Of a DNA stretch of 64,000 bases, positions 7,503-45,210 are shown piece by piece. How positions within the stretch are numbered: the stretch's first letter is position 1; each line of letters begins with the position of its first letter. The DNA lies in assembly GCA_000158135.1 (NCBI GenBank), contig DS999531.1:960132-1024131 (forward strand), in the 5' to 3' direction. Made by a program: the position numbers and the translations under genes. The notes beneath the pieces were generated by a model. That model was not told the origin of the DNA, did no database searches, and saw only the letters and a program-made list of their open reading frames with translations. The stretch is from Rhodobacteraceae bacterium KLH11. GTDB lineage: Bacteria > Pseudomonadota > Alphaproteobacteria > Rhodobacterales > Rhodobacteraceae.

Positions 7503-8168
7503 CTAAGCGTTCTCAAAAAAGCGGCATTCTTGTGCATTAAAACCAGTTATTCCAGCAGACCTAAATGCAGAATACAATTCGTCAGATGCGATCAAGAAAG
7601 TGCCTAGTCGGCTGTCAACCCAGAGATGTCGACTTAGTACGATGCTACGTCGCCATGTAAGACGTGTGGGACGTGCTTTGGGCAATAGCACAGAGGAGCG
7701 TACAACGCTACCATCTGGAAGCTTACTAGCCAGCTCCTGTTCGACAACGTCGGAAGAATCAACAACAAGAGCATCACTGAGAATGTTCTCTTGCCCTAGT
7801 CGGAACCGATAGTAAGATGCGCCTGTCACCTGATTACCGTTTCTAGTGACAATCGTCTCATAGAACCGATGCACGGATGGTTCCAGTTCTTCTATTAGTC
7901 CGCGCGCCGTCTCACCTACATAAATGTCGTTGTATAGATAGCTGGCGAATTCCGGCAAAGGCTTAGGAGCTTTGACAATATCAAGCCGAAAGGGAACTAG
8001 CTCCGTGGGTATTTCGGCGACAAAACCCGATATACCATGAGAATCAAGGGGATTGTGGCCGTTGGGATAACCACCATCCAAATCCAAACGAATGTTCCCG
8101 GATTTAACATCCAATATCCACGGCACCACTTGATATCCTTCTAGCTGGTCGCTCGCCAGCTTTTTCAA
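7503..8168 (-). CDS. Hypothetical protein, possible orphan Imm11/DUF1629-type immunity protein
   Basis: 221 residues, no signal peptide or membrane segment. The C-terminal layout (HLWVDSRLGTFLIASDEL, then a short helix and GITGFNAQECRFF) resembles the end of Imm11/DUF1629 polymorphic-toxin immunity proteins, which typically read 'h.wr...g.lfvSdel...l...gltG..f'. This is pattern recognition, not a search result. The only start codon in frame is a TTG at 8168 with a weak Shine-Dalgarno, so the 5' end may be truncated. Base composition is clearly more A+T rich than the flanking ubiG and marR, suggesting horizontal gain. No toxin gene is beside it. Confidence 0.55.
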   Translation of the reverse strand: MKKLASDQLEGYQVVPWILDVKSGNIRLDLDGGYPNGHNPLDSHGISGFVAEIPTELVPFRLDIVKAPKPLPEFASYLYNDIYVGETARGLIEELEPSVHRFYETIVTRNGNQVTGASYYRFRLGQENILSDALVVDSSDVVEQELASKLPDGSVVRSSVLLPKARPTRLTWRRSIVLSRHLWVDSRLGTFLIASDELYSAFRSAGITGFNAQECRFFENA

Positions 8169-35950: not shown

Positions 35951-36958
35951 ATGACATTGAACTCAATCGGCGATCTGGCCCGCGGCCTCACCCTCAGGAC
36001 CCGCAGCACCGAGATCAAGTCACAAATCGAAACCCTGTCGTATGAGATGTCGACCGGCAAGGCGCAGGATATCTCGGGCCGTCTGGACGGCGATTATTCA
36101 CACCTTCTGGACCTTGATCGGAATCTTGACCGGCTAGAGGCCTTTTCTGTTGCCACTGCCGAAGCCCGCCTGTTCACCGATGCGATGCAACTGAGCCTGA
36201 CAACTTTCAGCGATTCATTGGCCGAAATGTCTGCCGCCCTGCTGTCATTCGGGACGTCAAACCAGGCGGTGACACACACACAGGCCTCGGCTCAGGCAAG
36301 AAATGAGCTGGATACGATGATTTCGTCACTGAACACGCGAACCGGCGGGCGCAGCCTGTTTTCCGGAACGGCAACGGATGTTTCACCGCTGCCACCGGCT
36401 GATACCCTGCTGACCGCCTTGCAGGCCGAACTGACCGGTCTGACCAGCGCGACGGATATCCGGCAGGCCGCCGAGAACTGGTTCAATGATCCCACCGGGT
36501 TTGACGCAATGATTTATCAGGGCAATGCGACTGCGCTGGCCCCGATGCAGATTTCCGAGAACGAGCAGATAGACGTTCCGATCACCGCAACCGATCCCGC
36601 GCTCAAGGCCGCGTTGCGCGATGTTGCTGTAGCGGCCCTGGCATCCGAGGATGCGTTGGCCTTGGCCCCGGAGGTACAGACTGCCCTGTTCACAGAACTT
36701 GGTGTCAATCTGGCGAATACTCAGGATGAAACCGTTAATCTGCGGGCTCAGGTTGGCGCGGCTGAAGCGCGCGTCGAACAGGCGGCCACGCGCAATGCTG
36801 CCGCAAAGACCAGCACCGAGCACGCCCGCAACGAATTGATCGCCGCCGACCCGTATGAAACCGCAGCCCGTTTGCAAACCGTGCAGTTCCAGCTGGAAAG
36901 CCTTTACTCTGTGACCGTGCGCAATGCCAATCTTTCGCTGGTGAATTTCCTGAGATGA
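35951..36958 (+). CDS. flgL: Hook-filament junction protein FlgL (HAP3)
   Basis: 335 residues from the ATG at 35951, 2 nt after the flgK stop; the TTG at 35945 is disfavoured. Flagellin-like helical N-terminus (LRTRSTEIKSQIETLSYEM, SGRLDGDYSHLLDLDRNLDR) and C-terminus. Joins FlgK to flagellin. The stop overlaps the flgI start by 4 nt. Confidence 0.88.
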   Translation: MTLNSIGDLARGLTLRTRSTEIKSQIETLSYEMSTGKAQDISGRLDGDYSHLLDLDRNLDRLEAFSVATAEARLFTDAMQLSLTTFSDSLAEMSAALLSFGTSNQAVTHTQASAQARNELDTMISSLNTRTGGRSLFSGTATDVSPLPPADTLLTALQAELTGLTSATDIRQAAENWFNDPTGFDAMIYQGNATALAPMQISENEQIDVPITATDPALKAALRDVAVAALASEDALALAPEVQTALFTELGVNLANTQDETVNLRAQVGAAEARVEQAATRNAAAKTSTEHARNELIAADPYETAARLQTVQFQLESLYSVTVRNANLSLVNFLR

Positions 36959-38049
36959 AAATTCTGGCCTTCCTTCTGATACTCTTGCCCTGCACGGTCA
37001 CCGCCGGTGCCATCCGTCTGAAAGACCTGGTGGATTTCGATGGTGTACGCGGCAATGATCTGGTGGGCTACGGCCTTGTGGTTGGATTGAATGGCACCGG
37101 GGACGGGTTGCGCAATTCTCCCTTTACCGAAGAAATCATGTCCAACATTCTGGAGCGGCTGGGCGTTAATGTGAACGGCGAGGATTTTCGCCCCAAGAAC
37201 GTCGCTGCGGTGCTGGTAACCGCCAGCCTGCCTCCGTTTTCCAGGGTTGGCAGCCAGATTGATGTCACGGTTTCCGCCATCGGGGACAGCAACAGCCTGC
37301 TGGGCGGAACCCTTATCATGACACCGCTGAATGCAGCCGATGGTCAGATTTATGCCGTGGCGCAAGGTTCAGTGCTCGCCGGAGGGGCAAGTGCCGAAGG
37401 TGAGGCAGCCACGGTCGTGCAGGGTGTACCGACCTCGGGCATGATCCCTTCGGGGGCAAGGGTGGAACGGGAAATCGATTTCGAACTCTCGGCGTTGACA
37501 CGGCTGCGCCTTGCGCTGAGGGAACCTGACTTCACAACTGCGGGCCGGATCGAAACCGCGATCAACTCGGAATTCAACCGGGCGGTTGCGATCATGCGGG
37601 ATTCCGGAACGGTTGAGCTGAACATTGCCGCAACTCAATCCGCATCCACGGCCCATGCCATCGGGCGGATCGAAAACATTCTGGTAGAGCCTGAAAGCAA
37701 GGCTCGGGTGGTTGTCGACCAGAGGTCCGGAACCATTGTCATGGGGCGGGATGTCAGGATTTCACGCGTGGCGGTATCGCAGGGCAACCTGACCCTCACC
37801 GTCGAAGAAGCCCCCATCGCCGTGCAACCCAATCCCTTTGCCCGCGGTGAAACGGTCGTCGTGCCCCGTACCGTCGCCGGGATCGAAGAGGAGGAAGGAA
37901 CCGGATTGGCCGAAATCCCCGAAGCGACCACCCTGTCAGAAGTTGTCGCCGGACTGAATGCTTTGGGCGTATCCCCGCGCGACATGATCGATATCCTGAA
38001 GACCATCAAGGCCGCTGGCGCGCTTCATGCCGAATTCATCGTAAGATAA
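36955..38049 (+). CDS. flgI: Flagellar P-ring protein FlgI
   Basis: 364 residues. Signal peptide ILAFLLILLPCTVTAGA, then RLKDLVDFDGVRGNDLVGYG, VGLNGTGDGLRNSPFTEE, and the C-terminal SEVVAGLNALGVSPRDMIDILKTIKAAGALHAE. Periplasmic ring around the rod. It is last in the flgE operon and converges on the DUF1523 gene. Confidence 0.97.
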   Translation: MKILAFLLILLPCTVTAGAIRLKDLVDFDGVRGNDLVGYGLVVGLNGTGDGLRNSPFTEEIMSNILERLGVNVNGEDFRPKNVAAVLVTASLPPFSRVGSQIDVTVSAIGDSNSLLGGTLIMTPLNAADGQIYAVAQGSVLAGGASAEGEAATVVQGVPTSGMIPSGARVEREIDFELSALTRLRLALREPDFTTAGRIETAINSEFNRAVAIMRDSGTVELNIAATQSASTAHAIGRIENILVEPESKARVVVDQRSGTIVMGRDVRISRVAVSQGNLTLTVEEAPIAVQPNPFARGETVVVPRTVAGIEEEEGTGLAEIPEATTLSEVVAGLNALGVSPRDMIDILKTIKAAGALHAEFIVR

Positions 38050-38084: not shown

Positions 38085-38729
38085 CTACTTTGATTTCCAG
38101 CTATTCAACCAACGGCGCAGCCCCTGGCGTTTTTCGTCAATCGCATCTCCGGCAGCATAAAAACCATCTTCGACATTCTCCAGAACCGGGTCGATCTTCT
38201 TTCGTCGGAAGCGCCGCCACCGGACCCAGATGGCCCATACGACCGCAGCAAATAAGATCAGGAATACGATATTGAACCAGGGAATGATACGAATATCGGG
38301 GCCTTCGACATGCCGGATGAACACGGCGTTGGGAAAAATCGACATGAATTCATTGCGCCAGCCATAATGCGTTACGACCACCCAGTCCGGATTGTCCTTG
38401 GTTGATTTCGCGTCATTCGCTTCGGTATAGAGGTTCGCCGTGTCGAATTTAAAGTAAGGCGGCCAGCCCCAGCCGGTATCCTCATTCCGGTACACGATAG
38501 GTTTGCCATTGGCACGCACCGCCTGGATGAACTGGACATCGCGATTTGCGAGGCTGGTGGATTGATCTTCGGGCTCGGACCAGAAAATCCGTGTCCAATC
38601 GTTCAGATCCTGACGTTCTTCATAAGTGTTGACGATCCGAACCACATCATGTTGCGGCAAGGTATATTGCAGGATCGCAGCCACCGCGCCCCAGAAAATG
38701 ATGATAAATGCCCATTTGACATAGGCCAT
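38085..38729 (-). CDS. DUF1523-family membrane protein (last gene of the AAA+ cluster)
   Basis: 214 residues with two membrane helices (WAFIIIFWGAVAAILQYTL near the N-terminus and WFNIVFLILFAAVVWAIWV at about 150-170), placing residues ~25-148 outside and a basic tail (RWRRFRRKKID) in the cytoplasm. It matches the DUF1523 family of Rhodobacterales. The extracytoplasmic part has Trp/Asp-rich segments (DTGWGWPPYFKFDTANLY). Function unknown. 10 nt after the 88-residue gene. Confidence 0.82.
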   Translation of the reverse strand: MAYVKWAFIIIFWGAVAAILQYTLPQHDVVRIVNTYEERQDLNDWTRIFWSEPEDQSTSLANRDVQFIQAVRANGKPIVYRNEDTGWGWPPYFKFDTANLYTEANDAKSTKDNPDWVVVTHYGWRNEFMSIFPNAVFIRHVEGPDIRIIPWFNIVFLILFAAVVWAIWVRWRRFRRKKIDPVLENVEDGFYAAGDAIDEKRQGLRRWLNSWKSK

Positions 38730-38739
38730 GCCGTAATCC

Positions 38740-39006
38740 TCACATGTAGTTCACAATATAGATCAGAACGCCGATCGCGATCCAGGGCACGACATACACG
38801 CCCAGAATCAGTTTGCGCCGGAACGACGTGTCATAAACGTGCAGCCCTCGCTCAACAAAAGCCGACTTATCTCCGGTTTTGCCCTGTTCATCCCACCAGT
38901 TTTCCAGCTTGCGCCGCCGCACCCCGCGCGAATAGAGCGATAATGCGACATAGGCAATCGTCTGCAGGATCAACAGGATCAAGACAAGGCGCAACGCTCC
39001 AAACAT
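38740..39006 (-). CDS. Small membrane protein of the AAA+ cluster (88 aa)
   Basis: 88 residues with two helices (LRLVLILLILQTIAYVALSL and KLILGVYVVPWIAIGVLIYI) and a basic middle loop (RRRKLENWWDEQ). Starts 1 nt after the stop of the 445-residue gene, so translation is surely coupled. No known family recognised. Possibly a partner of the DUF1523 protein in the membrane (inference). Confidence 0.75.
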   Translation of the reverse strand: MFGALRLVLILLILQTIAYVALSLYSRGVRRRKLENWWDEQGKTGDKSAFVERGLHVYDTSFRRKLILGVYVVPWIAIGVLIYIVNYM

Positions 39007-39007
39007 C

Positions 39008-40345
39008 TTACCTCTTTCCTACCGTGCCCCACGGACCAACGCGTGCAATCACCGCGTCGCTCACCCGGTCGTCACCGCTCATATCCGGCTCATGCCCGAA
39101 CAAAGCGGCGCGCGCCCCGGATTTATCCACCTGATACTCGCAGGCAAGGAAATCGGCAACATAGGCTTTCTTGGCCTCGGGCCATGTGGCGTAGGTCCTG
39201 TAGAACAGTTCTTTGTGGCAGATGAACATCTGGCGCGGGTCCAGCGGGGCAAGCTCCGCCAGCAACATGTTCACCAGATCTCGGTTCGGCGTATCCGCAG
39301 CGCGCAGCGTGTAAAAATAGGCCGCGTGATCCGATGCAATGCGCGGCCACGGCCCGCCATCTGTCGCCCAGCGCAACAGCTGGGCCAAACCGTGATAAGC
39401 CGCAGGCAGCCGGTCAGAATGGCTGCGCGCCAGACGGCGCATATCGCTGCGGTCAAGTCCGGTCAGATCGACATCTGCATCAGAGGCAGCATCAATAGTC
39501 AGGAAATCCATCTTCTGCTGCAGGATTGCGGCCGCATCCACACCGCGCGCTTTGACGATGGGCTCAACCAGATCGTTGTAGTCGAGAAACTTTGCGATCT
39601 GGTTTCGCTGCGACGGGTTGAAGGTGTATTTGATCGGCAGGTCCTCGGGCGTGTCACCCATACAGATCGCCGCCGGGTGATCCACATCCGGAAACAGATA
39701 GAGCCCGCCGTAATGCGCCGTCCAGAAATTGCGCTGTTCAAACGCGGTATGGCGCAGGTGGACAGGATTGCGGGTGACATCGCCGGTTTCCCTGGCCGTC
39801 TCGATCATCTTGGCGATCAGCACATCGTCGAACCAGGCATCCTCTTCGGTCTTGAACTGTTCCACCATGCCCGCCAGTTGCTGTGCCTTGCGCAGGGTGC
39901 CGCCTGCGGTATCGGCCTCGATCTCAATCTTGCGCAGATTCAACAGATCGCGCGGGGTGGTGAGCTTGATGACCGAGTTCACCAACTCTCCGGCCACCGC
40001 ATCGGTGGCGGTCAGGGCAAACAGCTGCGCCTCGTTCATCTCGATAAACTCGCGCAGAATATCGCGCGAGGTTGAGAATTTGACGCTCAGCAGCGGCGCG
40101 CGTTTCTGCTCGGTTGTCAGCAGAATAAACTGCCGGTTGACCCCGTTGGGGTTGAGGTAGAGCTCATCCTCCAGCTCAATCCCCACCTCCGGCGAATAGC
40201 CCGAGATATCGACATGGAAATCCGTCAATGCCGTGGTCTTGCCCGCCAGATGCTGCAGCGCACGGTTATACCGCTCGACCAGAGCCGGGCTGGAGATGTG
40301 GACGAGGTTGCCGAACATCAGGCCTTTTTCGATGAGGTGGATCAT
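39008..40345 (-). CDS. Conserved protein of unknown function (445 aa) in the AAA+ cluster
   Basis: 445 residues, soluble, no signal peptide, no known catalytic motif seen. N-terminal half is beta-rich (FHVDISGYSPEVGIELEDEL, NRQFILLTTEQKRAPLLSVK), the C-terminal half mixed (LDYNDLVEPIVKARGVDAAA, AYHGLAQLLRWATDGG, MFICHKELFYRTYATWPEAK). The start overlaps the stop of the 135-residue gene (ATGA). It may correspond to one of the uncharacterised Rhodobacterales DUF families, but I cannot assign a number. Function unknown. Confidence 0.8.
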   Translation of the reverse strand: MIHLIEKGLMFGNLVHISSPALVERYNRALQHLAGKTTALTDFHVDISGYSPEVGIELEDELYLNPNGVNRQFILLTTEQKRAPLLSVKFSTSRDILREFIEMNEAQLFALTATDAVAGELVNSVIKLTTPRDLLNLRKIEIEADTAGGTLRKAQQLAGMVEQFKTEEDAWFDDVLIAKMIETARETGDVTRNPVHLRHTAFEQRNFWTAHYGGLYLFPDVDHPAAICMGDTPEDLPIKYTFNPSQRNQIAKFLDYNDLVEPIVKARGVDAAAILQQKMDFLTIDAASDADVDLTGLDRSDMRRLARSHSDRLPAAYHGLAQLLRWATDGGPWPRIASDHAAYFYTLRAADTPNRDLVNMLLAELAPLDPRQMFICHKELFYRTYATWPEAKKAYVADFLACEYQVDKSGARAALFGHEPDMSGDDRVSDAVIARVGPWGTVGKR

Positions 40346-40749
40346 TTTACAGGGCCACCTTCAGCGGCGTTACGCGGCGAATTTCGCTGCATATGTTTTC
40401 TTTGCATTCGAATGCGGGCCATAGTTCCATCGGCATTAGGCACCGAGTTGTTCCTTCTTTGCCGAGCGAACAATGCCAAAAAACATGCGCCTGAAGAAAG
40501 AAGTATCGAAACAAAAAAGATACTGGGAAAAGTAAGCAAACTAAATTTGTAAACCAAAAGATAGCCTGTTCCTGCGCCGAGTTGCCCGGTTGAGAGTACG
40601 CCCCATAGCTCAAACAGTGCCATCGGAACAAGAACGACGCTTACTATTGGTGCAACTAGAACCGCCAAAAAGAATAGAACCAATCTAGGGGAAGTGATCC
40701 AACCGAGCGCGAAACTAGAGCCAACAATTATTGCGATTAGAAACAGCAT
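40342..40749 (-). CDS. Small membrane protein of the AAA+ cluster (135 aa)
   Basis: 135 residues, three hydrophobic helices (MLFLIAIIVGSSFALGWI, LVLFFLAVLVAPIVSVVLVP, FPSIFFVSILLSSGACFLAL) and a basic hydrophilic tail (RIRMQRKHMQRNSPRN). Visibly more A+T rich than its neighbours, yet precisely fitted: it starts 7 nt after the ATPase stop and overlaps the next start by 4 nt. Could be a later addition to the operon. No family recognised. Confidence 0.65.
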   Translation of the reverse strand: MLFLIAIIVGSSFALGWITSPRLVLFFLAVLVAPIVSVVLVPMALFELWGVLSTGQLGAGTGYLLVYKFSLLTFPSIFFVSILLSSGACFLALFARQRRNNSVPNADGTMARIRMQRKHMQRNSPRNAAEGGPVK

Positions 40750-40756
40750 TGTTTAG

Positions 40757-42688
40757 TCACCCCTTCCCCTCCAGATACCGCCGCTTGGCCTCTTCCATCC
40801 GGCCCATCTCGCGGACCGCGTTTTCGATGGCGACCTCGTCGCTCTTGTCGGCATAGCGGAATTCGCTGTCGGCGTAGCGGTTGATCTCTTGCATCACCAT
40901 TTCCACCGTGATCGGCTGACGCAGGTCCTCGATCATGGCCTTCTTGATGTCGTAGTCGCAGAACAGGAACAGGTCGGGGTTCTCCATCCACTCATCAGGC
41001 AGTTCGAAATCCATCGCGCGGACCTTGACCGCGTCGGTGATGTTCTTGATCGCGCGGCCGGTAAACCGCTCATCCGCCTGTTGAATTGCCTTGAGGTAGG
41101 TGCCCAGCTTGGCGATCGTGTCCATCTCGCCGATCTCGCCGGACACCCGTTCATAGACCTGTAGCAAGGCATCTTCATGCGGGCGAGAGTGGCTTTCGAA
41201 ACTGGCCGCGACGGCTTTCTTGATCTCCTGCGCAGCGTAAGCCTCGTGTTCGCCCAGCGGGATGTCGTGGTTGCGGCCCATCAGCAGGTGCAGGATGTCG
41301 ATATAATCCTCGCGCGTCTGCGGCCCGTCCACAAGGAACCGCGCGCCCGCTCGCTGGCGCAGGGCGTCGTCCACATTCTCGGGGTAGTTCGAGAACATGC
41401 CAAAGGTGCAGTTGCCGCGCACAACGGTGTTGGCGCCCGCAAAGCTCTCCATCAGCACGGCGGTGATTTCCAGCTGCCCGGCCGAGGACTGCCGATCGCC
41501 GCGTTTCCCTGCCAGTTGGTCGATATCGTCGATGGTACCGAAGCCGATGACCGAGGGGTCGATGATCGTATTGATAAAGGCCTTGGCGTTCTGGCCGGAT
41601 TTGCCCTGATAGCTGTCGATATTGTCGGTGCTCAGGTTCTGATAGCGGAACGGATAGCCCGCATTCTGGCAATAATCGTTGATCAGCCCGGCCATCATCT
41701 GGATCAGGGTGGTCTTGCCGGTGCCCGGCTTGCCGTCGCCCATGAAGGTAAAGATGAACCCGCCAAGCTCGGCAAACGGGTTCAGGCGGCGGTCAAAGTC
41801 ATAGGCCATCACCATCTTGGCCAGCTTCATCGCCTGATACTTGGCGATATGGTTGCCGACCACCTCGTTCGGTTTCTTGAACGTCATGGTCAGTGTGGTG
41901 GATTTCGCCTTGGATGCCGGCTCAAACCCCCGGATCGTCAGATCATCCGCCTCGATATGCCAGGCGGCGTTCTGGAATGGGGCCAGATGGCCAGCGGACC
42001 CTGCACGCAAGGCGGCCTTTTCCATAAGCTGTTCGGCATAGGCGCTGGTGGCGGCGATCAGATGGGCATCATCGGGCGCGTGTTTGGCCAGCGTCTGGTC
42101 CAGCTCCCACAGCGCGCCATGCAGGGCAAGTTGACCATTGTCGGTCAGAACCTCTTCGATCTCACCGATATCAACAGTGGTTTCACCCAGATGCGAGGAC
42201 ATCAGATAAGCCAGCGCATTCCCGAACACATGCAACGTGATCAGGGCCTCAGCCGTCAGCAATTCCGAAAACTCACCCTTGCGCGCAGCAGGCAAATCCC
42301 CCGCCAGATTGGCCCGTTTCAGATCGGCCAATGGAGTCTGTTCCGCATAAACCTCAGCCAGAGCCAACGCGATGGCAACTGCGCGCCGAATGGCCTGCTG
42401 TGTCGTCGCCTGAGGCGGCGAGACCAGCGTATCCCCATCATCCGAGGCCTCAATCCGCTCAACCAGATGCACCCCATCCGCCCGCGCAGTGCGCCGCGTC
42501 ACCAGGCCCGGTGTTGTCGATCGAAACCGCCGCCCGGTCGACACACCCGGAGACCGTTCAACGGCGACCTCAACCGCCCTGGCAATCCGAGGCGCATGTT
42601 CAAACCCGTTCAGCAAAGCGGTCGCCGCCGGATAATGCTTGCGAATATCCACCTCACGCAATTCCATCTGATCTGACGTCAAACTCAT
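40757..42688 (-). CDS. AAA-type ATPase with large novel N-terminal region
   Basis: 643 residues from the ATG at 42688; a GTG at 42694 is possible. Residues 1-300 match no family I know. From ~300 a classical AAA domain: Walker A GDGKPGTGKTT (317-327), Walker B region VIGFGTIDDIDQLAGKRGD (380-398), sensor-1 Asn in FGMFSNYPENVDDAL (N434), and candidate arginine fingers in RQRAGARFLVDGP (445-450). The order mirrors FtsH/p97 (FIDEIDA..RG, TNRPD, RPGRFD), except that Walker-B Glu is replaced by Asp (IDDID). No protease HExxH. Probably remodels a protein or membrane partner encoded in the same operon. Confidence 0.85.
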   Translation of the reverse strand: MSLTSDQMELREVDIRKHYPAATALLNGFEHAPRIARAVEVAVERSPGVSTGRRFRSTTPGLVTRRTARADGVHLVERIEASDDGDTLVSPPQATTQQAIRRAVAIALALAEVYAEQTPLADLKRANLAGDLPAARKGEFSELLTAEALITLHVFGNALAYLMSSHLGETTVDIGEIEEVLTDNGQLALHGALWELDQTLAKHAPDDAHLIAATSAYAEQLMEKAALRAGSAGHLAPFQNAAWHIEADDLTIRGFEPASKAKSTTLTMTFKKPNEVVGNHIAKYQAMKLAKMVMAYDFDRRLNPFAELGGFIFTFMGDGKPGTGKTTLIQMMAGLINDYCQNAGYPFRYQNLSTDNIDSYQGKSGQNAKAFINTIIDPSVIGFGTIDDIDQLAGKRGDRQSSAGQLEITAVLMESFAGANTVVRGNCTFGMFSNYPENVDDALRQRAGARFLVDGPQTREDYIDILHLLMGRNHDIPLGEHEAYAAQEIKKAVAASFESHSRPHEDALLQVYERVSGEIGEMDTIAKLGTYLKAIQQADERFTGRAIKNITDAVKVRAMDFELPDEWMENPDLFLFCDYDIKKAMIEDLRQPITVEMVMQEINRYADSEFRYADKSDEVAIENAVREMGRMEEAKRRYLEGKG

Positions 42689-42745
42689 TTCCACAAACGC
42701 CCTTGCTTCATCTTTTCAAAAATACTCCCGCCGGAGGCATCGAAT

Positions 42746-43864
42746 CTAGTAACGCAACACCTGCCCGCTCTTGCTGACCACGAACTTATGCAAATCCGTA
42801 AAACCCGGCGGGTTGCGTTCGGCCAGCACCTGAAACGGTCGCTGAGGCAGGATGATCGATCGCTGCGTCCGCGTCGCCCCGGTCTCGGCCCCTTGCCCGC
42901 CGAAAGGATCAAGCGCAAAGACCTCGCGCTCGACAGTCGAAAACCACCCGGCGCGCTCCTCAATGACCTCTTCGCTTTCCAGCTCTTCCGTCGTCCAGGC
43001 CAGCGCCCAGTCCTGCCCTTCAGGTGCCTGCGCGTCTTCCAGCACCTGCCGCAGGGGGCCGGACTGTTCGGTATAGGCCGAGGAATACATCGGCCCCACA
43101 TGGATGCGCCGCATGTGCTTGGGGTGCAGATCGTCGAAATCCTGATCGAACCCCTTGGCAATGGTCACCAGTTTCAACCCGCCTAACGATTGCGCCATCA
43201 GATGCGCCTGCACTTCAGGCCAGCGGCGCTGGTCTTTCGGCAAAGCGGTCTTACCGCTGTCCTCCAACTGCATCAGGTAGATGACCGGCAGGTTGATCTG
43301 GCTGTCATAAACCGCCCAATGGATCATGAACTTGCGCCGCTCACCCTCATTCCCGATCCAGTGGCATTCGGGATCGTTGCGGGCCCAGAACAGCTCTCCC
43401 TTCAGCAATTCCTCGTAATAGAGCCTTTGGGACAGCGCGAACTGCAGCTTGGTGGGGATTTCCCGGTCGCCAATAATCGTCCGCACCATGTCGGTTTTCA
43501 GATCGTCTTCCGAGGGCATATTCGCCAGATGCACCTGCGCCTGCTGCGCGTCATTGGCCATGGTCAGCAGCTCAGCCGCCACCGGAAACCCGCTGTCGCG
43601 CTTGTCCATGGCGAGGCTGCCAAAGAACCGCCCCGTATCGCGCCCGACCAGCAAGTATTTCATGGAAAGCGCCCGGAAAGTGTAGAGCAGCCCCGAGAGG
43701 TAGCGCGACACGATCCGCACTTCTTGCTTGCTGATCGCGCCCTCAGCCTCCATCGTCGCGGCCACGCGCAGGAGGTGGACGGTGATCACCTCGAATTTGC
43801 GGAAATAGCGGCGCGAGGCGAAGGTGTCGGTCAGGCCGACATGGTCTTGGGTGGGGTTAGTCAT
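42746..43864 (-). CDS. Conserved protein of unknown function (372 aa) in the AAA+ cluster
   Basis: 372 residues, no signal peptide or membrane helix. The N-terminal ~90 residues are helical (YFRKFEVITVHLLRVAATME, RIVSRYLSGLLYTFRALSMK); the remainder is mixed, with CHWIGNEGERRKFMIHWAVY and LGGLKLVTIAKGFDQDFDDL. Starts inside the end of the 94-residue membrane gene (8-bp overlap), and the ATPase gene follows 57 nt downstream. Not assigned to any known family. Confidence 0.8.
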   Translation of the reverse strand: MTNPTQDHVGLTDTFASRRYFRKFEVITVHLLRVAATMEAEGAISKQEVRIVSRYLSGLLYTFRALSMKYLLVGRDTGRFFGSLAMDKRDSGFPVAAELLTMANDAQQAQVHLANMPSEDDLKTDMVRTIIGDREIPTKLQFALSQRLYYEELLKGELFWARNDPECHWIGNEGERRKFMIHWAVYDSQINLPVIYLMQLEDSGKTALPKDQRRWPEVQAHLMAQSLGGLKLVTIAKGFDQDFDDLHPKHMRRIHVGPMYSSAYTEQSGPLRQVLEDAQAPEGQDWALAWTTEELESEEVIEERAGWFSTVEREVFALDPFGGQGAETGATRTQRSIILPQRPFQVLAERNPPGFTDLHKFVVSKSGQVLRY

Positions 43865-44141
43865 TTAGTTTTCGACCAATTAGTTTGTCGATCAATGAAA
43901 GATACGCATCGAAGACCAGCCAAACCATGCCCCAAATTGCCATCATTGCGGAAATCCCAAAAAGGCCGAGAGCCAGGGTCAATGGGGCCATGAACAACAT
44001 CATTCTCAAATCGGGACCAAGGTATACAGGAAGCAACTGAACCAGATTTCCGAATAGGATGAGAAGCCCTCCGAAGAAAGCGACGCACAGTGCAGCACCA
44101 AGCATCTTTAGCGGCGCTCGGACTAAACTCTCACCCGCCAT
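43857..44141 (-). CDS. Small membrane protein of the AAA+ cluster (94 aa)
   Basis: 94 residues from the ATG at 44141 (MAGESLVRAPLKMLG); the longer frame to 44339 is antisense-style noise over the coiled-coil gene. Two to three hydrophobic helices (LGAALCVAFFGGLLILFGNL, MMLFMAPLTLALGLFGISAM, AIWGMVWLVFDAYLSL). It overlaps the upstream coiled-coil gene by 11 bp and the downstream 372-residue gene by 8 bp, so all three are translationally coupled. No family recognised. Confidence 0.7.
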   Translation of the reverse strand: MAGESLVRAPLKMLGAALCVAFFGGLLILFGNLVQLLPVYLGPDLRMMLFMAPLTLALGLFGISAMMAIWGMVWLVFDAYLSLIDKLIGRKLND

Positions 44142-45210
44142 ACAAATTCTTATCATGCTTCTCGACAATCGAGGCGAACCGGCGGGCAAAGCGTTCATCC
44201 GCCTTGGCCTTTTTCTCCAGCACGTCGCGGGCAAAGACCATGTGGTCCTCATGCGCCTCAAGCATGTCGGCCATTTTCTGGTTGGTCGCGGTGCCGATGG
44301 CGGCCATGGCGGTTTGCGCCTCTTGGTCGGTCTGCACACCGATCTCGTTGATGCGGTGGGCCACGTCCTGCTGCTGCGCGGTTTTCAACGACTTGGTCAG
44401 GGCGTCATACAGCACCACGCGCTGCTGCGTGTCTGTTTGCAGCTTGTTGATCAGCACCATCTGCGTCGCCGCCTGGTTCTGTAGGGAATCGACCCAGGTC
44501 TTGCCCTTTTCGATATAGCGCTCCAGCGTTTGGGATTTGGCCAGCTTGACCTGCTCTTCCTGAACCTTGGCGTTGTATTGCTTGTTCAGCTCGGCCAATT
44601 CAGTCTCTAACTGGGTGCGCGCGGCGGCGTCCTGTTCAACGCTGATCTTGTTCTCCAAGGTGATGATTGCCGGGTCCATGCCCTGAATCTCGGCCCGCAG
44701 CGCTTCCAGCTCGGCCACGGTGGCCTCGCGGTCGTCCAGCGTGACGGTCAGGTTATCCTCGACCTTCACACGCTGTTCTTCCAGCACGGCCAGTTGCCCC
44801 TCCAACAGCTTTACGATCACATCCGACTTGGCGATCAGGTCCTGCAGCTTGTCGTCGATATTGGCCGTGCGCATACGTTCCTGCCGCATCGATTCCGATT
44901 TCCCGCGCGAGAAGATGCCAACAAACGACTCCCACCCGGTTTTCGAACGCATCTCATCAAAATCCTTGGAAAACGCATTGGTCACGTCGTCCAGCCCCAT
45001 GATCAGCTCGGCGATATTGGCGTTCATCACTTCGGTATGGGCGTGCACGTCTTCGAGTGTAGCGTTTTCGATGTCGATATCCGCCTCGGCAGTCCCGATC
45101 TTGGCGCGCGCGGCCTCGATGCGCGAGGTCAGCCCTTCAATCTGTGACTGGCTTTCACGGACCTTGGTCTGCGTCTCCTGAATCAACGCTTCAAACTGCT
45201 GGTTCGACAT
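44131..45210 (-). CDS. Long coiled-coil protein, first gene of the AAA+ cluster
   Basis: 359 residues from the ATG at 45210 (MSNQQFEALIQETQ), preceded by AGGGA. Almost wholly helical: coiled coils around residues 5-60 (RESQSQIEGLTSRIEAARAK), 105-175 (IVKLLEGQLAVLEEQRVKVE) and 190-240, then a helical C-terminus (LYDALTKSLKTAQQQDVAHR). No signal peptide. The build is reminiscent of PspA/TelA-like helical proteins that sit on membranes and work with ATPases, but I see no diagnostic motif. Probable substrate, adaptor or scaffold of the AAA ATPase (inference). Confidence 0.78.
   Translation of the reverse strand: MSNQQFEALIQETQTKVRESQSQIEGLTSRIEAARAKIGTAEADIDIENATLEDVHAHTEVMNANIAELIMGLDDVTNAFSKDFDEMRSKTGWESFVGIFSRGKSESMRQERMRTANIDDKLQDLIAKSDVIVKLLEGQLAVLEEQRVKVEDNLTVTLDDREATVAELEALRAEIQGMDPAIITLENKISVEQDAAARTQLETELAELNKQYNAKVQEEQVKLAKSQTLERYIEKGKTWVDSLQNQAATQMVLINKLQTDTQQRVVLYDALTKSLKTAQQQDVAHRINEIGVQTDQEAQTAMAAIGTATNQKMADMLEAHEDHMVFARDVLEKKAKADERFARRFASIVEKHDKNLYGG

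Follow-up and report, generated by a model that had tools for sequence, protein, structure and literature searches.

A conserved AAA ATPase operon of roseobacters that probably serves as a two-slot exchange site for small accessory genes

Introduction

Do the eight consecutive genes of an uncharacterised AAA ATPase operon in Rhodobacteraceae bacterium KLH11 form one machine, or do they belong together in another way? The operon occupies the minus strand at positions 38,085 to 45,210 of a 64,000-nucleotide stretch of contig DS999531.1 (hereafter the window), and an initial annotation, made from the letters alone, had read it as a single membrane-linked remodelling machine. Comparison with related loci showed that six of the genes (P1, P3, AAA, P6, P7 and P8) form a conserved core, and that P2 and P5 sit in two intervals, here called slot 1 and slot 2, whose content changes from strain to strain. 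We consider it probable that the conserved operon serves as an expressed acquisition site with two slots, in which cassettes are exchanged by homologous recombination. All eight open reading frames (ORFs) were confirmed by their coordinates, with overlaps of 11 bp (P1/P2), 8 bp (P2/P3) and 4 bp (P5/P6) and remaining gaps of 57, 7, 1 and 10 nt. The features are, in the order of transcription:

44131..45210, minus strand: P1 (core), 359-aa coiled-coil protein; its 3' part borders slot 1
43857..44141, minus strand: P2, 94-aa small membrane protein, occupying slot 1
43865..44130, minus strand: slot 1, the interval from the P1 stop to the P3 start, 266 bp in the window
42746..43864, minus strand: P3 (core), 372-aa protein; its 5' part borders slot 1
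40757..42688, minus strand: AAA (core), 643-aa classical AAA ATPase; its 3' part borders slot 2
40346..40756, minus strand: slot 2, the interval from the AAA stop to the DUF6638 start, 411 bp in the window
40342..40749, minus strand: P5, 135-aa membrane protein, an orphan occupying slot 2
39008..40345, minus strand: P6 (core), DUF6638 protein of 445 aa; its 5' part borders slot 2
38740..39006, minus strand: P7 (core in roseobacters), 88-aa membrane protein
38085..38729, minus strand: P8 (core in roseobacters), DUF1523 protein of 214 aa

Results

Six genes form a conserved core

Two sets of loci were compared. The first consisted of 80 loci chosen by their AAA relative, 19 from Ruegeria and 61 others, some of them clipped by contig ends. 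The second, used for close comparison, consisted of 36 stretches from Ruegeria, the genus that holds the best-matching relatives of the window AAA gene; as these same-genus genomes overlap the 80-locus set, the two sets are not independent. In roseobacters the core is syntenic: the five core genes besides AAA were present in all 19 Ruegeria loci and, among the 61 non-Ruegeria loci, P1 was found in 59, P3 in 60, P6 in 58, P7 in 55 and P8 in 56, with the gene order kept across the set. P2 and P5 were each present in only one of the 80 loci. The proposal that the genes belong together therefore stands for the six core genes, which co-occur in the same order, and not for P2 and P5, which occupy two exchange slots in a strain-specific manner; with genes 2 and 5 variable, a machine of eight subunits is rejected.

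The same association was seen over a wider range. In a family survey of 248 genomes, about one per genus (cut-offs of E<=0.001 for AAA and E<=1e-20 for P1), AAA was found in 104 genomes and P1 in 105; both were present in 102, neither in 141, AAA alone in two and P1 alone in three, in agreement with the co-occurrence that the initial annotation had predicted. Relatives beyond the family came from a tblastn search of plasmids and a search of the phylum, earlier searches having sampled the class thinly. Ten plasmid records, all from Sinorhizobium, Shinella, Rhizobium or Vibrio, carried AAA, and the same ten carried DUF6638; in all six of these that were inspected, P1, P3, AAA and DUF6638 followed one another in this order, and the Vibrio plasmids were large. 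Shinella, R. leguminosarum and two Vibrio records had an intact core whose slot 2 was empty and whose slot 1 was no more than a short gap. In S. meliloti, slot 2 held an endonuclease-domain protein and an IS4-family transposase, and a DUF2333 protein came after DUF6638. DUF6638 was detected in 26 of 398 genomes of the phylum, including families other than that of KLH11, and had no match in the phage collection. Most genomes had a single copy of the core, and it was syntenic, not mobile.

Two strains were unusual with respect to AAA. One same-genus genome (G025) was the sole member without an AAA match among the 37 searched, window genome included, and in a draft Sulfitobacter (L091, locus 8001-8036) the AAA gene had an in-frame stop at codon 5, with the ORF resuming at Met codon 8, which is either a real truncation or an assembly error. 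Beyond P8 lies flgI (window 36955-38049), which is convergent with the DUF1523 gene, the two gene ends being 35 nt apart; all 19 Ruegeria loci carried it, as did one of the 61 other loci, where flanks were limited. A promoter scan was uninformative (3 sites against 3.6 expected), as were the terminators (12 against 7.5 expected).

Two intervals within the operon vary in content and have gene-precise borders

Slot 1 ranged from -4 to 780 bp in 79 loci and was shorter than 100 bp in 15 of them, and slot 2 ranged from 34 to 2382 bp in 77 loci and was shorter than 100 bp in two (window included in both cases). Among same-genus strains (14-36 per junction), the standard deviation of the gap length was 137 bp at slot 1 and 249 bp at slot 2, as against 0 bp at P6-P7 and P7-P8, 12 bp at P8-flgI and 0-3 bp at the flg junctions; the core junction P3-AAA was intermediate (94 bp). 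Counting ORFs of at least 60 aa, we found 24 content types at slot 1 in 35 strains and 26 at slot 2 in 36. These counts exclude L149, which had no P3/P1 call, and include L173 (89% AAA identity), which was excluded from the gap, edge, segment-distance, fourfold-site GC and flank-sharing statistics and from the bootstrap of the fourfold-site distances.

Homology ends at the bordering stop and start codons. Mean pairwise identity, calculated in 10-nt bins over 35 strains, was 0.90-0.99 over the first 60 nt of P6 versus 0.27-0.31 over the preceding 60 nt, and it fell from 0.60-0.71 to 0.27-0.30 at the AAA stop and from 0.76-0.92 to 0.26-0.30 at the P1 stop, and climbed from 0.25-0.33 to 0.68-0.77 at the P3 start. 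The control junction P6-P7 (0.39-0.79) lacked a comparable drop. The content of the slots follows the direction of the operon: in each of the 71 slots the longest ORF ran on the strand of the operon, and the median coverage of a slot was 1.00 by co-directional ORFs versus 0.33 by ORFs of the opposite strand. A slot-2 ORF had a 4-bp or 1-bp overlap with the AAA stop in 22 of 35 strains, and in 26 of 35 one ended between -1 and +12 nt from the P6 start; overlaps of 4 or 1 bp with the P1 stop were seen for the slot-1 ORF in 12 of 35 strains.

Occupants are diverse, keep to one slot and include defence-like genes

Occupant sets were compiled without ORFs below 60 aa or below 50 aa and without ORFs of GC above 0.62 that lacked a transmembrane segment. 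In the 80-locus set, 157 occupant ORFs fell into 92 clusters, 72 of which were singletons. By a simple hydropathy rule, a transmembrane segment was predicted for 58 of 61 slot-1 ORFs and 78 of 96 slot-2 ORFs, and the median GC of occupants was 0.49-0.50, compared with 0.53-0.67 for AAA genes. All 20 multi-member families were confined to one slot (mean of 7.1 and maximum of 13 in 5000 shuffles), in a test that excluded AAA-derived ORFs and to whose result shared descent adds. One slot-2 family gave 13 hits in the 248 genomes: the seven with E<1e-20 all lay 6-514 bp downstream of AAA, and six weaker ones lay elsewhere (the profile was built from slot-2 members). The two occupants in the window illustrate how narrowly such genes are distributed. 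A word-limited search of 5.8 billion proteins returned nothing for P5 at E<=0.001, and in the 80-locus set its one relative, 36% identical, was located in slot 2 of another locus (L032). P2 had two database hits, the window's own entry and Ruegeria sp. ANG-R, and belongs to a five-member family in the same-genus set.

Nine of 148 candidate slot ORFs were excluded before alignment, namely the L091 AAA gene and eight that were apparently repeat-derived or out of frame, and 139 slot proteins were compared with Pfam. Eleven families were matched, none of them a recombinase or transposase, and the majority of occupants were without any family match. Among the recognised proteins were a Mrr restriction enzyme in slot 2 of 4 of 36 same-genus strains (1.5e-32, 1.8e-32) and, each in one slot-2 protein, putAbiC (8.6e-14), an AbiJ N-terminal domain (8.4e-09), an RNase_T exonuclease with BRCT (4.8e-18) and HNH (4.5e-05). 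DUF2971, DUF4279, a histidine-kinase-like ATPase and a thioredoxin-like protein were found in one protein each, and a HEPN-like occupant was recognised by eye only. PADLOC matches comprised PDC-S02, PDC-S31, PDC-S48 and type IV restriction, together with one occupant each for the DrmA and CARF-HEPN models, and PHROG 9267, whose function is not assigned, matched 11 of the 139 slot proteins. The statement that nothing in the operon resembles a defence system holds for the core; in the slots, relatives carry defence-like genes at the same positions.

Two further kinds of slot content were observed. In slot 1 of L194, a Phd/YefM-like antitoxin ORF (81 aa, recognised by eye) is followed by a 140-aa ORF in a toxin-antitoxin-like arrangement; the 140-aa ORF had no Pfam match at E<=0.01. 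Several slots, among them slot 2 of L041, L042, L068, L085 and L089 and slots of other loci, contain a recurring GC-rich sequence (with translations such as ...RRARPAPQGGR... or ...TSPTRPPGGG...), which may be a roseobacter intergenic repeat.

Diversity of the core genes drops towards the slots, and the slots contain relics of core genes

Distances at fourfold sites were calculated, with bootstrap ranges, for the 30 same-genus strains that had all genes. Away from the slots the distance was 0.62 in flgI and 0.55 in P8. In each of the four genes bordering a slot it was lower on the slot side: 0.14 in codons 1-80 of P6 versus 0.44 in codons 301-440, 0.19 in codons 561-640 of AAA versus 0.49 in codons 41-160, 0.22 in codons 1-80 of P3 versus 0.40 in codons 280-372, and 0.21 in codons 240-359 of P1 versus 0.43 in codons 1-60. 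Diversity therefore dips beside each slot and rises again between the two. Between the window and 54 loci of other genera, the distance at the 5' end of P6 was 0.44, indicating that the low same-genus value is a within-genus effect for which a universal codon constraint is insufficient.

In slot 2 of four same-genus strains, a relic of an AAA 3' end lies between two stacked occupants. When these relics were scored against the AAA ends of 36 other strains, the resident gene was outscored by 32 in L162, 18 in L170 (6 tied), 28 in L163 (4 tied) and 31 in L141 (1 tied), which argues against recent self-duplication. The L163 relic precedes the Mrr gene, and its three best matches were the other three strains with Mrr in slot 2, an agreement noticed post hoc. 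Relics of the P3 5' end were present in slot 1 of four strains, where the resident was outscored by 18 of 35 others (L140), 11 of 32 (L147), 25 of 35 (L149) and 7 of 8 (L152). Slot 2 of the same-genus strains showed no relic of the P6 5' end.

Three of the six core proteins match Pfam families

The Pfam searches bore out two labels of the initial annotation, AAA (PF00004, 1.5e-11, 45.3 bits versus a cut-off of 21.2) and DUF1523 (PF07509, 1.5e-71), and assigned P6 to DUF6638 (PF20343, 3.8e-228). P1, P2, P3, P5 and P7 had no Pfam match above the cut-off, and PHROGs, NCBIfam and PADLOC gave no convincing name to proteins other than these three. In nine AAA sequences from three lineages (roseobacters, Rhizobiaceae and Vibrio), P321, G322, T323, G324, K325 and T326, D387 and D388, N434, R444 and R446 were invariant; these residues we take to be the Walker A and B motifs, sensor-1 and arginine finger. 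With its domain above the cut-off and its active-site residues conserved, the protein belongs to the classical AAA ATPases; the transmembrane proteins that the initial annotation had described are likewise present. Its matches in the PDB, to an i-AAA protease domain, fidgetin-like 1 and Vps4, were weak, as was that to the TRIP13 model of PADLOC (6.6e-06), the best PADLOC match in a core that had no strong one.

P1, P3 and P6 had no relative among solved structures at E<=0.001 and no sequence match to ESCRT-III/PspA, and the predicted folds of P3 (a helical N-terminal part and a mostly beta C-terminal part) and P6 had no Foldseek match at E<=0.001. A relationship of P1 to TelA was not supported, as PF05816 was not among its Pfam hits at E<=1 and hhalign gave a probability below 1% from shallow profiles. 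A separate TelA-family gene is located elsewhere in the same genome (G000:C6:2063499-2064485).

Discussion

The variable content of the slots lies between conserved core genes without mobile-element genes, the IS4-family transposase of S. meliloti being the exception. We suggest that an old operon, P1-P3-AAA-DUF6638 with two additional membrane-protein genes in roseobacters, has two exchange slots built into it. Each would accept small cassettes, mostly of a single gene and at times of two to three, that fit precisely from one core gene's stop codon to the start codon of the core gene that follows. Strains would exchange these cassettes via homologous recombination in the bordering core genes, presumably producing the diversity gradient. 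An occupant would then land co-directionally in the operon, where it is probably co-transcribed, and the frequent 4-bp or 1-bp overlap would couple its translation to that of the preceding gene. One-sided events would leave stacked occupants split by a relic of the donor flank. Conflict, most likely with phages, is probably what drives the turnover, since the slot-2 occupants that can be recognised mainly resemble nucleases or abortive-infection proteins. As it also exists with empty slots, the core is most likely a remodelling machine of the AAA type that has a function of its own.

Several observations weigh against exchange by recombination. The diversity valley was strong only in the Ruegeria set and weak or absent in five mixed-genus groups; genus g417 had a slight one, and genus g420, whose slot 2 keeps one family by eye, had none there and showed a shallow dip at slot 1, which varies. 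GC at fourfold sites was higher near the slots (0.92-0.93 in P6 codons 1-80 and 0.92-0.94 in AAA codons 521-640, compared with 0.63-0.74 in flgI), so that codon bias may contribute to the valley; the high values may reflect either GC-biased gene conversion or codon bias. Segment distance matrices were nearly uncorrelated throughout, which leaves no clonal frame. Sharing a slot-2 family did not predict flank similarity (P 0.54-0.95 in seven tests), and at slot 1 two of six tests gave low values (P3 codons 1-30, P=0.0025; codons 1-80, P=0.04; uncorrected). The relic matches span just 40-148 nt, and in L170 the resident gene ranks mid-field. Each of the 11 Pfam families was matched by only one of the 139 slot proteins. 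As to a gene transfer agent as the possible carrier of donor DNA, the GTA_TIM marker PF13547, the one marker searched, was not found in the window genome, with a positive Caulobacter control.

Part of this evidence could be accommodated without any exchange, by birth and decay in place of AT-rich orphan genes, with the valley reflecting synonymous constraint on the ends of core genes. The low GC of the occupants and their general lack of family matches would fit such an origin, as would the raised fourfold-site GC near the slots and the failure of slot-2 flank sharing to track occupant sharing. It accounts poorly for relics that are not closest to the resident gene, for recognisable enzyme domains, for occupant families common to several genera and for a P6 5' end that is not comparably conserved between genera, and we regard it as very improbable. 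Nor do we think it likely that the operon encodes one membrane-linked PspA/Vps4-like remodelling machine in which the small transmembrane genes are fast-evolving true subunits, even though this would agree with the classical AAA domain and its weak structural matches, the coiled-coil and transmembrane partners and the predicted transmembrane segments of nearly all slot-1 ORFs. True subunits would hardly comprise 92 clusters among 157 proteins, include nuclease-like soluble proteins and be absent at times, and none of P1, P3 and P6 matched ESCRT-III/PspA in sequence.

A less improbable alternative, to which we give limited credence, is that the operon as a whole works as a modular system against phages or in antagonism, with the AAA core doing the sensing or supplying the power and the slot genes acting as interchangeable effectors. 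Slot-bound families, co-direction and frequent stop-start overlaps are consistent with such a division of labour, as are the rarity of a slot 2 below 100 bp, the weak resemblance of AAA to TRIP13 and the effector-like character of occupants such as Mrr, putAbiC, HNH, the exonuclease with BRCT, the AbiJ N-terminal domain, the HEPN-like protein recognised by eye and the small transmembrane proteins. Against this, the core is mostly single-copy and syntenic rather than mobile, stands without slot genes in Shinella, R. leguminosarum and two Vibrio records, has a slot 1 below 100 bp in about a fifth of the loci and has no strong PADLOC match. Combined with exchange, the core could conceivably be an immune chassis whose two slots take interchangeable effectors, swapped across a genus-wide pool by recombination in the chassis genes, an extension that we put forward tentatively. 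It would, as an equally speculative part of the same proposal, assign small membrane proteins to slot 1 as effectors, and nucleases, Abi-like proteins and membrane proteins to slot 2.

On the reading that we favour, a two-slot acquisition site maintained by recombination, the operon shares features with known hotspots. The accessory-gene hotspots of Oliveira et al. (2017, PMC5635113) are reported to show frequent recombination at the flanking core genes and higher nucleotide diversity there. As in the present slots, accessory genes are replaced between conserved ones with no mobile elements detected, and double flank recombination is the mechanism that those authors propose; the present locus differs in having two slots in one operon, borders at stop and start codons, few and co-directional genes and flank relics, and in that diversity drops towards the slot whereas it is raised in the flanking core genes of those hotspots. 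The cDHS1 and cDHS2 sites of P. aeruginosa (Johnson et al. 2023, PMC10250203) have median sizes of 26 and 6 kb, tRNA/tmRNA flanks and often mobile-element genes, and transduction plus recombination is suggested there as one route. Common to them and to the KLH11 operon are conserved flanks, variable content of lower GC (stated for cDHS1) and defence genes, which are defence-like by sequence in our case; the slots described here, in contrast, stay below 2.4 kb in the 77 loci compared and are contained in an operon. The P2/P4 hotspots (2022, PMC9122126) likewise hold variable anti-phage genes at fixed positions, and here again the counterpart is resemblance in sequence; those hotspots sit in phages and satellites, unlike DUF6638, which had no match in a phage collection.

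As for the core, its ATPase resembles the Vps4, fidgetin and FtsH class in the AAA domain and the conserved active-site residues, and differs from it in an N-terminal region of its own of about 280 residues and in the company of P3 and DUF6638, which are without a Foldseek match. Our literature search found DUF6638 in no paper and DUF1523 in four, and neither this operon nor an intra-operonic twin-slot site was recognised among the top-ranked literature matches, which is not proof of absence.

The analysis links an uncharacterised, conserved AAA operon to what is probably a natural site at which single genes are swapped, with precision, into a fixed position that is probably expressed. Its slots would represent a catalogue of small genes, mostly unnamed and possibly antiviral, most of which would escape a search for known defence families. 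The steep diversity valley may offer a clean place to study the exchange of accessory genes without mobile elements.

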